From Acidobacteriota bacterium (lineage in GTDB: Bacteria > Actinomycetota > Acidimicrobiia > Acidimicrobiales > Microtrichaceae), in NCBI GenBank assembly GCA_003577145.1, contig QEUP01000017.1, forward strand, positions 62,001 through 126,000: a stretch of DNA of 64,000 nt, read 5' to 3'. The notes beneath the pieces are model-generated. The model ran no database searches and was not told where the DNA came from. It saw only the letters and a program-made list of their open reading frames with translations. The translations under genes and the position numbers were made by a program. Position 1 is the stretch's first letter. Every line of letters begins with the position of its first letter. Positions 5,557-64,000 of this stretch are shown here, piece by piece.

Positions 5557-6237
5557 ATGGAGCCCCTTCTCCTGTTCCCCGACCCAGCTCCCCCCGAGCT
5601 GGCCCAGGTCCTCGACCTGGCGGGTTACCCCTGGAAGTCGGTGAGCGACGCCGACGCTGCCCGTTTGGGCGAACCCGATGACGGCTGGGCGGGTGCCATA
5701 GTCGTTGCCGACGAGAACGCCGAGGGCGCCTTTGGCCTGCTGCGGAGCCTCCGCAAGCGCGACCTCCCTCTCGCTCCGGTTCTCCTGCTGGTCAAGGGCA
5801 CTCAACTCCGTGACCTCGAACTACGCGAGGACCTCTTCGACGACTTCTGCCTGACGCCCTTCCATCCCACTGAGCTCGAGGCCCGAATCCGGCACCTCTA
5901 CTACAGGATGGGTGGGGGTACGCGCCCCGAGCTCATCGAATACGAGGGTCTCGTCCTCAACCTCGAGACCTACCAGGCGGTCATCGAGGACCGGCCGCTC
6001 GACCTCACCTACATGGAGTACGAACTGTTGAAGTTCCTCGCCTCGCATCCTGGGAAGGTCTTCACCAGAGAGACGCTGCTGAGCCGGGTCTGGGGCTACG
6101 AATACTACGGGGGAGCGCGCACGGTCGATGTTCACGTGCGCCGGCTCAGGGCGAAGTTGGGCGAGGAGAACGCCGGTCTCATCCAGACCATCCGCTCGGT
6201 CGGGTACAAGTTCGGTGAGTCGCGCTGGACGGTCTGA
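5557..6237 (+). CDS. glnR: GlnR-like OmpR-family orphan response regulator
   Basis: This 226-residue protein has an atypical receiver domain (about residues 1-110) and an OmpR/PhoB winged helix (about 125-222). The receiver lacks a clear phospho-acceptor Asp in the usual context, as in actinobacterial GlnR, which acts without a partner kinase. The DNA-binding half contains LDLTYMEYELLKFL, VWGYEYYGG and TVDVHVRRLRAKLG, very close to GlnR of mycobacteria and streptomycetes. GlnR controls nitrogen-assimilation genes. Its place 19 nt behind glnA, together with a tandem GTGAAC site in front of glnA, supports that role here. The start at 5557 gives the typical N-terminus. Confidence 0.85.
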   Translation: MEPLLLFPDPAPPELAQVLDLAGYPWKSVSDADAARLGEPDDGWAGAIVVADENAEGAFGLLRSLRKRDLPLAPVLLLVKGTQLRDLELREDLFDDFCLTPFHPTELEARIRHLYYRMGGGTRPELIEYEGLVLNLETYQAVIEDRPLDLTYMEYELLKFLASHPGKVFTRETLLSRVWGYEYYGGARTVDVHVRRLRAKLGEENAGLIQTIRSVGYKFGESRWTV

Positions 6238-6381
6238 TCTGCCCGGCAAGTCCCGCAGGACCACTCACGCCCCTCGCTTCCACAACATGCCTCCCGCCAA
6301 GTTGTGCCTTCCTCGACAGCACGCTTTCAGACCCCGTCCTCGCCTCTCAGCCCGGGCCTCGGTGCTCGCCGGTCGCCGGCC

Positions 6382-58602: not shown

Positions 58603-59319
58603 ATGAGGCGACGAAGCACCGTGGCATGGGGTCGTGACCGGTTCCGGGTCGGGCCCTGGCACGGCGAGGCACACGTCGCCTACATCTCGCTTCAACCCGA
58701 GTCGCCTCCGCCCTCGGTGGACGGGGTGCGTACGTGCATGGACCACCTCGTGGAGAGGGGATACACCTCGGCGCTCACCTCGGCGCTCAACGACACCGAG
58801 CAACCGGCATTCGTCCGAGCGGGCTTCGTCCCCCACGAAGCGCTCTACGTGCTGGCCCACGACCTGCACGACGTGCCCGGCGAGATCACCCACCGGCTCC
58901 GGCGGGCCCGACGTTCGGAGAGGCACGAGGTCATCTCCCTCGACAACATGGCCTTCGACCACTTCTGGCGGCTCGATCAGGTGGGGCTCGACGAGGCGCT
59001 GGCTGCCACCCCTGTAGCCCGGTTCCGTGTCGCGGTGGACGAAGCGGTGGCGGGCTATGCGATCACCGGCCGGGCAGGCATCAACGGATACGTGCAGCGA
59101 CTGGCTGTGCACCCGGCTCATCAGCGCGTGGGGATCGGCCGGGCGCTGGTCGTCGACGCCCTCGACTGGCTGCGCCGGCGCGGTGCACGTCTCGCACTGG
59201 TCAACACACAGAAGACCAACGCCGCCGCCCTGGGGCTCTACGAGCGGCTGGGCTTCGTCCGTCAGCCTTCTGAGCTCACGGTGTTCACCGTGGACCTCGC
59301 ACCGGGCGGTGTCACGTGA
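58603..59319 (+). CDS. GNAT-family N-acetyltransferase
   Basis: 238 residues. The acetyl-CoA motif is in VHPAHQRVGIGRALV (Q/RxxGxG/A), followed by LGLYERLGFVRQ. The first 100 residues may be a second, degenerate GNAT half. The ATG at 58603 is followed at the 3' end by a GTGA overlap with the DUF6049 gene, so both are in one operon with the kinase. In mycobacteria a GNAT/NUDIX gene sits near this locus. Confidence 0.83.
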   Translation: MRRRSTVAWGRDRFRVGPWHGEAHVAYISLQPESPPPSVDGVRTCMDHLVERGYTSALTSALNDTEQPAFVRAGFVPHEALYVLAHDLHDVPGEITHRLRRARRSERHEVISLDNMAFDHFWRLDQVGLDEALAATPVARFRVAVDEAVAGYAITGRAGINGYVQRLAVHPAHQRVGIGRALVVDALDWLRRRGARLALVNTQKTNAAALGLYERLGFVRQPSELTVFTVDLAPGGVT

Positions 59320-61358
59320 GCCGCCTCGCCCCGGCGCTCCTGATCGCCTTGTTGCTCACGACGACCCTGTCGGCCCAGCCGTCGGACGCCGACTCGACCG
59401 CAGGTGCCCAAGAGCCCACGGATCACCCTCTGGAGTTGGTCGAGCTGACTCCCTGGGTCGAACCGGATGGCGAGTTCGTCGCTCGCTTCAGCTTGAGCCG
59501 ACCGATACCTCTGGACGCGGAGGTCACCTACTCCATTCGGTCCCCGGTGAACGAGTCCGACCAATCCGGCCGGACCCAGTTCCTTGCCGGGCTGTCCGGC
59601 GAGGATGCCGGTCCGGCGCTGCACAACCCGGTCACCAGGCCTGCCTTGCAGTTGCTCGAGGGCCCCGCCGAGTTGGTCCTGCGCATACCTGTGAGCAGCA
59701 CCGGCGACGCCGGGCGAACGTACATCCCCAATGCCGGGGTCCATCCCGTGGTCATCGAGGTGACGGCCGGCGACGAGCTCATCGATGAACAGGTCGTCCA
59801 TCTGGTGCGACTCCCGGAGGACGTGACCGACCCGCTGCGTATCGCCTTCCTCTTCTCGGTCGGTGCCCCTGTCGCGCTCCAGCCGGACGGAAGCGTGCGA
59901 CTCGACGCCGCCTCACGCGAGCAGATCGCGGCGGTCGTGGACCTGCTCGGTCAGGCATCCGGCACCGAGCTCTCGGTACGCGTGACCCCGGAGACGGTAA
60001 CCGCCCTGACCGCGACGGCTGATCCGGGCGATGCGGACCTGCTGGAGGACCTGGCGGCGGTCACCTCGGCGAGGGAGGTGCTCCAGCAGCCCTACACCGA
60101 GTTGGATATCGGCGCATGGTCCGAGCCGGCTCTCAGTGAGGAGTTGGAACTTCGCTTTCAAGCCGGCGACGCGGCGCTTGTTGATCTCCTTGGTGCCGTC
60201 GCCACTCGGTCCACGTGGCAGCCGGACTCGACCCTTACCACCGGGTCGACCAGTGTGCTCGAGGGCTATGGCGTAACGAACTTCGTCATCCGCGACGACT
60301 TCGTCTCCCCCGACGACGACGCCGAGACCGGTGAGCCGTTCCTTCTCGCAGCCGACGGCACCACCCCTGTGGGTCTCGCGACGGACCAGCTTCTCCAGGC
60401 ACAGCTGAGCACCGGTGTGGCCGAACCCATCGCCTCCGCCTACCGGTTCCTCGCCCATCTCGCGGTGATCTACTTCGAAGACCCCGACGCTGCTCGCGGG
60501 CTGGTCATAGCTCCCGAATCGATCGACAACCTCGTCTTCTACCAGACCATCCTCGACGGGCTCGAAAGCGGGACCATCGTGTCCTCCGCGACAACCGGGG
60601 AGTTGTTCGAGGAGGTACCTGTCGGTGACACCGACCAGGCCCCCATCATCCGCCAGCTCACCGGCAGCGAGTCAGAGCCGCTGGGTGACTACCCGAGTGA
60701 GCTCAGCCGAGCCCGGGGGATGCTCGTCGGCTACAGCTCGATGGTCGCCGACACGACTTCGCGAGCCGACTTCCTGGCGGAGCTCCTGTTGGTGAGCGGT
60801 GCCCGCACGCTCACTGCATCCGAGCGCCAGCGGTACCTCGACACCGTGACATCCACGATCGAAGGGGACCTCTCACAGATAAGAGCGCCACGACAGCGGA
60901 CCATCACCCTCGCCGCGCGCGAAGCGGTACTGCCGCTCAGCCTAGAGAACCGGCTGGAGTTCCCTGTCGAGGTATCCCTCGAGATGGACAGCGACCAGCT
61001 CGAGTTCCCCGACGGCGATGTCATGACCGTCCTCCTCCAACCCGGCGACAACCGGCTCTCCCTGAAGGTGACCACACGGACCTCGGGAGAGTTCCCACTC
61101 GTGATCGAGGTGACGAGTCCGGACGGGTCACTACCCGTGACCCTGATCGACCTCGACATCCGCTCCACCGCCGTCTCGGGGGTGGGTCTGGTGATCTCGA
61201 TCGGGGCCCTGCTGTTCCTGCTGGGCTGGTGGGCGACGAACTTCCGCCGCACGCGACGGGACCGCCGACTCGTGACCCCCGAAGACCCCGTAACGCCCAC
61301 CACCCCGGAGCCGTCGAGCGCCGGCGGGCGAACGAGCCACGGAACCGGCGACCGGTAG
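59316..61358 (+). CDS. DUF6049 membrane-anchored exported protein
   Basis: 680 residues: an N-terminal signal (LAPALLIALLLTTTLSAQ), an extracytoplasmic region of about 600 residues with beta-rich segments, and a C-terminal transmembrane helix (about 622-645, GLVISIGALLFLLGWWATNF) with a short basic tail. It is the counterpart of Rv3909, next to the MurJ/kinase gene Rv3910. Predicted role in the cell envelope, unknown in detail. GTG 59316 overlaps the GNAT stop. Confidence 0.78.
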   Translation: MSRLAPALLIALLLTTTLSAQPSDADSTAGAQEPTDHPLELVELTPWVEPDGEFVARFSLSRPIPLDAEVTYSIRSPVNESDQSGRTQFLAGLSGEDAGPALHNPVTRPALQLLEGPAELVLRIPVSSTGDAGRTYIPNAGVHPVVIEVTAGDELIDEQVVHLVRLPEDVTDPLRIAFLFSVGAPVALQPDGSVRLDAASREQIAAVVDLLGQASGTELSVRVTPETVTALTATADPGDADLLEDLAAVTSAREVLQQPYTELDIGAWSEPALSEELELRFQAGDAALVDLLGAVATRSTWQPDSTLTTGSTSVLEGYGVTNFVIRDDFVSPDDDAETGEPFLLAADGTTPVGLATDQLLQAQLSTGVAEPIASAYRFLAHLAVIYFEDPDAARGLVIAPESIDNLVFYQTILDGLESGTIVSSATTGELFEEVPVGDTDQAPIIRQLTGSESEPLGDYPSELSRARGMLVGYSSMVADTTSRADFLAELLLVSGARTLTASERQRYLDTVTSTIEGDLSQIRAPRQRTITLAAREAVLPLSLENRLEFPVEVSLEMDSDQLEFPDGDVMTVLLQPGDNRLSLKVTTRTSGEFPLVIEVTSPDGSLPVTLIDLDIRSTAVSGVGLVISIGALLFLLGWWATNFRRTRRDRRLVTPEDPVTPTTPEPSSAGGRTSHGTGDR

Positions 61359-61369
61359 ATTGGTGCTAC

Positions 61370-62908
61370 GTGGCCGAGCAGAGTCCCCCTGACATCCGAG
61401 GTGGTGACGAGCTCGCCGGCCGTACCCTCGCCGGCCGTTATCGCCTCGACTCGGTGATCGCCGCAGGAGGGATGGCACAGGTATGGAGGGCGACCGACAC
61501 AGTCCTCGGGAGAACCGTCGCCGTCAAGCTCCTGCACCCTCACCTGAGCGCCGACGCCACCTTCGTCGAACGCTTTCGTCAGGAAGCGATCCATGCGGCG
61601 CGGCTCGCCCATCCGGCGATCGTGTCGATCTTCGACACCTGCAGCGGCGACGGCTGGGAGGCCATCGTCATGGAGTTGGTCGACGGGATCACGCTCAGGG
61701 AGTACCTGGACCGCGAGGGCGTGCTCGACCCAGCCAGAACCGTGGAGATCGGAGCCCAGGTCGCCGACGCTCTCGAGGCTGCGCACAGGGCCGGGGTCAT
61801 CCACCGCGACATCAAGCCGGCGAACATCCTGCTCTGCGACGACCGTCGGGTCATGGTGGCCGATTTCGGCATCGCCAAAGCGGTCGACCGCACAGATCTC
61901 ACCCGGCAGGGGACAATGATCGGCACCGCGAAATACCTGGCGCCGGAGCAGGTCGAAGGCACCGACGTCGACGGTCGCGCCGACATCTTCTCGCTGGGTG
62001 TGGTCCTCTATGAGTGCCTCACCGGTCGAACGCCGTTCTCGGGCGACACCGACGCGGCGGTGGCGTTGGCACGACTTCACTCCGACCCGCTGAGGCCCCG
62101 ACAGGTCCGCGCCGACATACCGAAGCGGCTCGACGCCCTCGTGATGAGATCCCTGGCCCGCGACCGCAACCAGCGTCACCCGTCGGCTGCTGCGTTGCGC
62201 GCCGACCTGCTCGACCAGTCGCGGGCCACTGCCTCACCCGAGCCCCCGGAGGTCACCGAACCCTCCACCCCGCCGGGGGGGACTCCCACCTTCGTCCAGA
62301 GTGAGCGACGGTGGCTGGTGCCGGCTCTGCTCATCCTGATCGTCGCCGGCGGCCTCGGGCTGGCCGGCATTCTGCTCGGTCAGACCAAGGCCGGCCAGGA
62401 TTTGTTCGAACGCGCCAAGGAGGCCATCGGCCTCGACAACGACAGCGGCGCTGACCAAGCCGAGCAGGTGGGCATCACCGAGGTGGTCGCCTTCGATCCG
62501 CAGGGGTCGGGGCCGCCGGGCGAGAACGACGGTCTCACCGGCTACATGGTCGATGGCGATCCGGCGACCACCTGGCGCACCGAGAGCTACGACGAGCGGG
62601 ATTTCGGCACCAAAGAGGGGGTGGGGGCCTACTTCGTCCTCGACGGCAGTCGTTCCCTGTCCGAGCTACGTGTCACGTCGCCGACGATCGGTTGGGCCGC
62701 CGACGTCTACGTGCTGGACCACCCCCCGGAGCCCGCCGGAGTCAGCGGCTCGCCGGTGGCGTCGGCATCGGGGCTCTCCGGTGAGGTGACCTTCGACCTC
62801 GGGGGCGCCGACGGCAGCGTCGCCCTGCTCTGGATCACCGACCTGGGGGACGGTCCACCTGACCCACGCGTCCGGGTCGAGATCGCCGAGGTGTCGATCT
62901 GGGGCTGA
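61370..62908 (+). CDS. Ser/Thr protein kinase with extracytoplasmic discoidin-like domain
   Basis: 512 residues. Kinase domain (about 15-285): ATP-binding Lys in VAVKLL, catalytic HRDIKPANILL, DFGIAK and GTAKYLAPEQVEG, all intact. A proline-rich linker, a transmembrane helix (about 320-345) and an extracytoplasmic domain (about 365-512) of the discoidin/galactose-binding type follow. In mycobacteria Rv3910 fuses MurJ, a pseudokinase and a similar C-terminal domain. Here the MurJ part is absent and the kinase looks active. GTG 61370, 11 nt after DUF6049. Confidence 0.88.
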   Translation: MAEQSPPDIRGGDELAGRTLAGRYRLDSVIAAGGMAQVWRATDTVLGRTVAVKLLHPHLSADATFVERFRQEAIHAARLAHPAIVSIFDTCSGDGWEAIVMELVDGITLREYLDREGVLDPARTVEIGAQVADALEAAHRAGVIHRDIKPANILLCDDRRVMVADFGIAKAVDRTDLTRQGTMIGTAKYLAPEQVEGTDVDGRADIFSLGVVLYECLTGRTPFSGDTDAAVALARLHSDPLRPRQVRADIPKRLDALVMRSLARDRNQRHPSAAALRADLLDQSRATASPEPPEVTEPSTPPGGTPTFVQSERRWLVPALLILIVAGGLGLAGILLGQTKAGQDLFERAKEAIGLDNDSGADQAEQVGITEVVAFDPQGSGPPGENDGLTGYMVDGDPATTWRTESYDERDFGTKEGVGAYFVLDGSRSLSELRVTSPTIGWAADVYVLDHPPEPAGVSGSPVASASGLSGEVTFDLGGADGSVALLWITDLGDGPPDPRVRVEIAEVSIWG

Positions 62909-63087: not shown

Positions 63088-63672
63088 ATCGGCTCCGCAC
63101 CGGATGAGCACACTCTTGTTGGCGCTGCGCGGACGGGTGACCGCGGGGCACTCGACACGCTCCTTCGCGCCCACTACGACCGGATCTACGCGATCTGCCG
63201 ACGCATGGCGGGCAACGACGCCGACGCGGCCGATGCCACGCAAGAGGCGCTCATAGCCATCGCCCGCGGCATCGCACGATTCGACGGGCGCTCGTCGTTT
63301 TCGACGTGGACCTACCGGGTCGCCACCAACGCCTGTCTGGACGAGTTGAGAAGGCGCCACCGTAGGCCCGACCCCGGCCTCCCCGACGACGGCCACGCCC
63401 AGCCCAACCAGCACGAGACCTCCATGGACCAAGCTGTCGTCGAAAAGGACTCGATCGACCAGGCCTTGGCCGGTTTGCGAGAGGAGTACCGGGCGGCGGT
63501 GGTGCTGCGGGACCTCGGTGGCTTCGATTACGCGGAGATAGCGGCGATACTCGGCATCCGGCCGGGAACGGTGCGATCCCGCATCGCCCGTGGCCGTGCC
63601 GCCCTCGCCGACGCTCTGTCGCCGGGGAACCAGCGCGGCGACAACGACGTCCAAGCTGATGACCATGCCTGA
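63088..63672 (+). CDS. ECF sigma factor, SigM-like, no canonical start codon
   Basis: From ATC 63088 the protein is 194 residues: region 2 (GALDTLLRAHYDRIYAIC through SSFSTWTYRVATNACLDELRRR) and region 4 (EEYRAAVVLRDLGGFDYAEIAAIL). In that frame there is no ATG, GTG or TTG between the stop at 63076 and ATG 63205, which would delete region 2.1. TAGTCT (63076-63081) lies 6 nt before the ATC, as in leaderless starts here. An ATC start, or a start at 63205, is possible. It precedes a membrane anti-sigma factor and corresponds to sigM near oriC. Confidence 0.8.
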   Translation: MGSAPDEHTLVGAARTGDRGALDTLLRAHYDRIYAICRRMAGNDADAADATQEALIAIARGIARFDGRSSFSTWTYRVATNACLDELRRRHRRPDPGLPDDGHAQPNQHETSMDQAVVEKDSIDQALAGLREEYRAAVVLRDLGGFDYAEIAAILGIRPGTVRSRIARGRAALADALSPGNQRGDNDVQADDHA

Positions 63673-64000
63673 GCACGAGCCCGACCTCGACGAACTCGCG
63701 TCCGCCTACCTGGACGGTGAGACGACCGGCGACGAGGCTGCCCGCGTGGAAGACGACCCTTCCGCGCTCGCCCGCGTCGACCGTCTTGCCGCCGTAGCCG
63801 ACGCGATCGCTCAGCCAGTGGATCTGCCGGCGGTCGACCAGCGCGAAGACCAGATCGCCGCCGCCCTGACCGCCGCCCTGCCGGAGACGACCACCGTCGC
63901 CAGCCTCGCCGCCCAGCGAGAGCGCCGCGCCGCCCGGCAGACCCGCCTGGTTGCGATCGCTTCGGTGGCCGTGGTAGCCGTGCTGGCGCTGGTAGCGCTT
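63665..64000 (+). CDS. Membrane anti-sigma factor, 3' end beyond the window
   Basis: The frame from ATG 63665 (or 63659) reads MPEHEPDLDELASAYLDGE, the helical sigma-binding head of an anti-sigma factor, and runs to the window edge. At least 112 residues, ending in a hydrophobic helix (LVAIASVAVVAVLALVAL) that is the membrane anchor. It overlaps the sigma-factor stop, so the two are coupled. No zinc-binding CxxC is seen. It holds the sigma factor inactive at the membrane. Confidence 0.75.
   Translation, partial: MPEHEPDLDELASAYLDGETTGDEAARVEDDPSALARVDRLAAVADAIAQPVDLPAVDQREDQIAAALTAALPETTTVASLAAQRERRAARQTRLVAIASVAVVAVLALVAL

Follow-up and report, generated by a model that had tools for sequence, protein, structure and literature searches.

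A free-standing kinase with intact catalytic motifs at a murJ-less DUF6049 locus of Acidimicrobiales, a likely ortholog of the Rv3910 pseudokinase half

The pseudokinase of mycobacterial Rv3910 is well known as a case in which a kinase fold serves cell-wall control as a phospho-docking scaffold. According to excerpts of PMC12599244, the tail of this MviN pseudokinase in Mycobacterium tuberculosis is phosphorylated by PknB and recruits FhaA, the tail being the docking site, and excerpts of PMC6180346 give the partner of CwlM as the MurJ linker or FhaA according to phosphorylation. A split kinase form near mviN is already in print: according to the S6 Fig legend of PMC10166564, extension-less mviN genes of Actinobacteria often have a ‘protein kinase family protein’ gene downstream. 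Unlike the case described here, this legend is silent on catalytic motifs, murJ relocation and murJ replacement, and in the open-licence PMC literature we found no report of intact-motif Acidimicrobiia orthologs, of murJ at proA-proB or of murJ replacement.

The present analysis concerns a window (the whole stretch of 64,000 nucleotides) that is part of a contig of 198,545 bases (C26) from an Acidimicrobiales draft genome of 4.05 Mb in 68 contigs (96.6% complete). Its kinase shares with Mycobacterium Rv3910/MviN, the ActPs3 family in the excerpts of PMC12599244, the locus, the kinase fold, a helix after the kinase domain and a homologous extracytoplasmic domain, together with DUF6049 upstream and the SigM, TrxB and CwlM-position genes downstream. 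It differs in that it is not fused to MurJ, its VAIK/HRD/DFG motifs are not degraded and murJ is not in the locus. With the genes of the PMC10166564 legend it shares the state of being a kinase gene of its own near mviN, and with the PknB-type PASTA kinases a membrane receptor architecture and the closest kinase domain by score, but it carries a CBM32-like domain instead of PASTA repeats and the genome has a separate PknB-PASTA kinase.

The gene (61370..62908, forward strand) opens with GTG at 61370, 11 bases past the DUF6049 stop codon at 61358, and ends at 62908; ORF, Pfam, motif, kinase-tree, hhalign and AlphaFold2 analyses together describe its 512-residue product as a transmembrane Ser/Thr kinase. 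The kinase domain spans about residues 17-285 (61418..62224, forward strand; Pfam PF00069, E 5.3e-46) and contains every motif expected, namely AAGGMAQV, VAVKLL, HRDIKPAN, VADFGIAK and APEQ, with a conserved DLT in the activation loop. With its motifs complete, the kinase looks catalytically intact, and the earlier note was right in describing it as a separate gene directly after DUF6049 with full VAVK, HRD and DFG motifs. A membrane helix is predicted at residues 316-338 (62315..62383, forward strand) in the AlphaFold2 model of the full protein (mean pLDDT 83.8), in which the kinase domain is confident and the C-terminal beta domain separate. This C-terminal domain (residues 365-512; 62462..62905, forward strand), modelled with a pLDDT of 93.7, gave no match above cut-off when searched alone against Pfam, and no PASTA repeats were matched by Pfam in the kinase. 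Foldseek searches of the PDB returned mostly CBM32 modules or CBM32-carrying enzymes as top matches (E 5e-6 and weaker, TM-score on the query mostly 0.55-0.69), and hhalign (see below) agrees with an extracytoplasmic CBM32/F5-8 type C domain. The term ‘discoidin-like’, already used in the earlier note, is correct for the modelled domain at the level of the fold. By architecture, with a cytoplasmic kinase, one helix and an extracytoplasmic CBM32-like domain, the protein would be a receptor-like Ser/Thr kinase.

The immediate upstream neighbour encodes a DUF6049 protein (59316..61358, forward strand; PF19516, 1.8e-20), which we take to be of the Rv3909 type. Downstream, on the same strand, lie an ECF sigma factor with an uncertain start codon (63100..63672), whose best NCBIfam match was the SigM model with 140 bits, below the cut-off of 190, and the start of a presumed anti-sigma gene (63668..64000, an ORF that continues past the window to L004:6523). 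The contig then continues with trxB, a CwlM-position protein, parB, parA, rsmG, jag, yidC and dnaN, the identities from parB to dnaN being assigned by eye from the ORF list. Two PG_binding_1 domains were found in the CwlM-position protein and Amidase_3 was not detected in it; named records that share this protein are mostly Acidimicrobiales or Acidimicrobiia MAGs. We assume the gene order to be that of Rv3907 to Rv3922 and beyond, minus murJ. No murJ lies between the DUF6049 gene and the sigma factor of the window, and the MurJ module is thus missing from the locus as the earlier note had it.

To place this order among relatives, loci were collected at the level of the class and of the family. 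DUF6049 was matched in 68 of the 148 genomes of the class sample, and the 43 loci taken plus the window gave 44 Acidimicrobiia loci, of which the fullest read DUF6049, murJ, degV, kinase, sigma, anti-sigma, trxB and cwlM. The kinase was present in 33/44 (window counted), following murJ, degV or DUF6049, a frequency that puts its presence at the locus far beyond chance. A DegV-family gene, presumably of a fatty-acid-binding family, is frequent between DUF6049/murJ and the kinase (L080, L085, L088, L095 and most class loci) and missing in the window family. murJ itself was found at 24 of the 44 loci and was missing from 20; the kinase accompanied 14 of the 24 murJ-bearing loci, one of which ends at a contig end, versus 19 of the 20 murJ-less loci. 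Kinase presence thus does not follow that of murJ at the locus and gives no argument for an obligate MurJ-kinase pair. Within the family, 33 genomes were searched and 28 had a full-length kinase match; in all nine further loci examined DUF6049 stands directly before a kinase with intact motifs and murJ is absent, so murJ does not lie beside the kinase in these other assemblies either. In five family loci (L309, L310, L311, L313 and L315) no sigma factor was found between the kinase and trxB, which came next among the matches. Among 80 named loci DUF6049 was found in 49, with murJ too in 21 of these, and the murJ-less order recurs in the named MAGs L187, L189, L208, L212, L233 and L234. The locus of G087, of the same family, is letter-identical to that of the MAG Microthrixaceae bacterium ACE_NR_ACTI3 (L078 inside L233).

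Outside the class, the split order of DUF6049, murJ, kinase and sigma factor is found as well (for example in G160, G190, G148, G222 and G296), and other lineages also lack murJ at the locus (G276, G247, G195, G217 and G232). MurJ and kinase share one frame only in L137 (G183) among the loci of this comparison within and outside the class. A separate kinase gene is thus the commoner form, and it is probably older than the fusion.

The relationship to Rv3910 was then examined by profile comparison and phylogeny. The fused reference L137, in which MurJ and pseudokinase form a single 1242-residue frame, matched the solved Rv3910-type chains 3OTV, 3OUK, 3OUN and 3UQC with 427-430 bits. By hhalign, 19 Acidimicrobiia kinases and five Actinomycetes-type pseudokinases aligned end to end in their C-terminal domains with a probability of 99.7% (E 2.3e-26), and all 20 column-shuffled controls gave 0.5% or less. 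This bears out the likeness to the Rv3910 C-terminal domain noticed earlier. The window kinase, used as a query itself, also gave weak matches to the pseudokinase C-termini of G304 (5.2e-8) and G183 (7.9e-4).

The kinase-domain tree, a ‘quick’ tree, held 45 of the 88 available locus rows (55, including the two L098 pieces, plus 33) and 32 of 46 paralog rows, the other 14 being left out as duplicates from neighbouring loci or as fragments; L126 (HRN, DFS) and L134 (HGD) were labelled active, labels that touch the group table only. The window kinase grouped with 14 other locus kinases (15 rows; 97, starred) and not with PknB-type paralogs, so the phylogeny proposed in the earlier note as a check came out in its favour. 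A single branch (85, not starred) split 42 of the 45 locus kinases, dead ones too, from the 32 paralogs, among which the locus kinases of G296, G247 and G276 were placed in the free tree. When all 45 were constrained as a clade against the 32 paralogs, the tree lay 17.8 log units above the free quick tree (p-AU 0.741); with the Actinomycetes pseudokinases on very long branches, a locus-kinase clade is ‘not rejected’, which is consistent with a common origin rather than proof of it. Since locus and C-terminal domain correspond and this clade is not rejected, the window kinase is likely the ortholog of the C-terminal half of Rv3910, comprising the pseudokinase, transmembrane and extracytoplasmic parts.

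The distribution of living and dead kinases was also surveyed. Among the 33 class kinases, 32 had the catalytic lysine, HRD and DFG intact, the exception being L098 with its two pieces, and the motifs were also intact in all ten family loci, window counted; outside the class, intact motifs were found in 9/21 locus kinases. The named loci yielded 33 kinase ORFs or pieces, of which 23 were intact, one was cut at the N-terminus, four were fragments and five had lost HRD and DFG (L202, L226, L236, L247 and L261, L236 being Candidatus Microthrix). These five pseudokinases, of Candidatus Microthrix-type genomes (around 5600-6300 in most), keep VTVK, whereas the Ilumatobacter MAGs L223 and L262 carry orthologs with intact motifs. 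The catalytic site was therefore probably lost several times, and the loss in Candidatus Microthrix-type genomes was apparently separate from the mycobacterial one. An active ancestor follows from parsimony; the root and the direction from active to dead do not come from the trees.

We then asked where murJ had gone. Two clear murJ genes of the window genome lie off the kinase contig, one on contig C63 and one on C16, and a third match, on C9, fell below the family cut-off. The C16 gene (G000:C16, L006:8786-10534) lies between recN/steA/steB-like genes, whose steA and steB names are our assumption, and pyrG. It is not the relocated gene but an old paralog, also present in G138, G036 and G107, which keep murJ at the DUF6049 locus; pyrG-linked MurJs including that of C16 form a separate, class-wide clade (10 rows; 98, starred).

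Of the 20 Acidimicrobiia genomes without murJ at the locus, window counted, 18 have a MurJ beside proB (the exceptions are G006 and G012), and in 10 of 17 relatives it is near proA as well. Where the locus carries murJ, the best MurJ was that of the DUF6049 locus in every one of the 11 genomes searched. The MurJ tree (again ‘quick’) comprised 29 of 45 locus MurJs, 18/18 proA/proB-linked genes, two others and 10 of 11 pyrG-linked ones, with L172, which is in pieces, left out. Sixteen of the 18 proA/proB-linked genes formed one clade (SH-aLRT 91, not starred), with seven class DUF6049-locus MurJs as its sister (95, starred), all within the class locus MurJs (99, starred). As these 16 genes form one clade nested in the locus MurJs, a single relocation is the simplest account: judged from the trees, murJ moved from the DUF6049 locus to the proA-proB region, probably once, and its absence at the locus would be derived. 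The earlier note had offered the alternatives that MurJ had moved away or that the split form was ancestral. Both hold in part, for murJ moved to the proB side and the split is widespread and probably older, but the absence of murJ is derived rather than ancestral.

The MurJ of the window genome at this site (G000:C63, L005:9877-11862) occupies the slot of the relatives' vertically inherited, relocated MurJ and is itself divergent. Together with the MurJ of G075 and the locus MurJ of G296 it formed a branch (length 2.14; 100, starred) apart from the proA/proB clade, and forcing the window and G075 genes into that clade was rejected (p-AU 1.8e-45). G075 alone shares this type at proA-proB, and the relative in G296 stands at the DUF6049 locus of another class. 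Against the other genomes among the 33 of the family, nothing exceeded 34% identity and the long matches were at 25-32%. The genes around it, namely proA, two upstream genes, pspA and proB, have conserved counterparts in relatives, which rules out contamination as its source. Since the neighbours are conserved while the MurJ itself is divergent, the relocated murJ of the window lineage appears from these comparisons to have been exchanged in place.

The suggestion in the earlier note that kinase signalling may stand in for FHA docking found no support. Contig C19 of the window genome encodes PknB-PASTA, PstP and an FhaA with FhaA_N and FHA domains, which led us to reject a loss of FHA docking, and FhaA_N was present in 18/20 murJ-less Acidimicrobiia genomes, window counted, and not found in G008 and G075. 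A divergent second kinase adjoins the PknB-PASTA gene (G000:C19:24592-25365).

The explanation that we favour, with somewhat more confidence than doubt, is that of a free-standing receptor-like kinase, likely orthologous to the Rv3910 half, with the following history. By parsimony, the ancestor would have encoded a separate catalytic kinase downstream of murJ, the catalytic site would have been lost repeatedly, in lineages that include Actinomycetes and Candidatus Microthrix, and fusion of the dead kinase to MurJ would have taken place in mycobacteria. In one Acidimicrobiales branch murJ would have passed from the DUF6049 locus to the proA-proB region, and in the window lineage the relocated gene would then have been swapped for a divergent MurJ, the kinase staying in the old locus. 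The outside domain would sense a cell-wall or envelope glycan, and the kinase would phosphorylate proteins of lipid II or peptidoglycan synthesis in trans, with the CwlM-position protein nearby and the PknB-FhaA machinery as candidate targets. It would do so in parallel to FHA-based docking rather than in its place. The rival closest to this is that the kinase still regulates MurJ in trans, wherever murJ lies, either through phosphorylation of MurJ or through a phosphothreonine in its own juxtamembrane linker that docks FhaA, a possibility that we consider real if rather unlikely. FhaA and PknB are retained, threonines are present in the linker before the membrane helix, and the M. tuberculosis pseudokinase tail provides a precedent (PMC12599244, in excerpts); however, a specific MurJ-kinase contact would have to survive the swap to a divergent MurJ, and the linker threonines are conserved, by eye, in some relatives only. 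In a wider reading that we hold doubtful, the mycobacterial MurJ pseudokinase would be the dead remnant of an ancient glycan-sensing receptor kinase that ruled lipid II flux in trans. The window kinase, still alive, would have outlasted the departure and replacement of MurJ, so that its real target would be a pathway protein other than MurJ.

It is improbable that the kinase persists in a scaffolding or sensing role, with its intact motifs idle in the cell. Such a role would fit the dead mycobacterial ortholog, which in the excerpts of PMC12599244 still works as a scaffold, and the several lineages that lost the motifs and kept the gene, but drift without use would erase the three motifs that are intact in 32/33 sampled Acidimicrobiia kinases and 10/10 family loci. 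Less probable still is the chance landing of an unrelated PknB-type kinase at the vacated murJ site. Although the kinase domain is nearest to PknB among solved structures by sequence (1MRU, 233 bits) and the NCBIfam PknB_PASTA model scored 376 bits, under its cut-off of 450, the protein has an Rv3910-type domain at its C-terminus and no PASTA, the same kinase occupies 33/44 class loci and loci of other classes, and the tree groups it with locus kinases. We give almost no credence to an assembly or binning error hiding a murJ still at the locus: although the draft is in 68 contigs, DUF6049, kinase and sigma factor are contiguous in the window and the same murJ-less order recurs in the nine other family loci and the six named MAGs above.

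Returning to the favoured explanation, the kinase gene is real and conserved, and the well-known dead kinase likely has a living ortholog in its product, whose function we infer. That murJ moved to a fixed proA-proB site and was replaced there suggests that the flippase can be exchanged while the kinase remains beside DUF6049. Such a living ortholog, sharing the outside domain, would offer a direct route to the role of the catalytic ancestor, to the glycan recognised by that domain and to the order in which FhaA docking arose and catalysis was lost.
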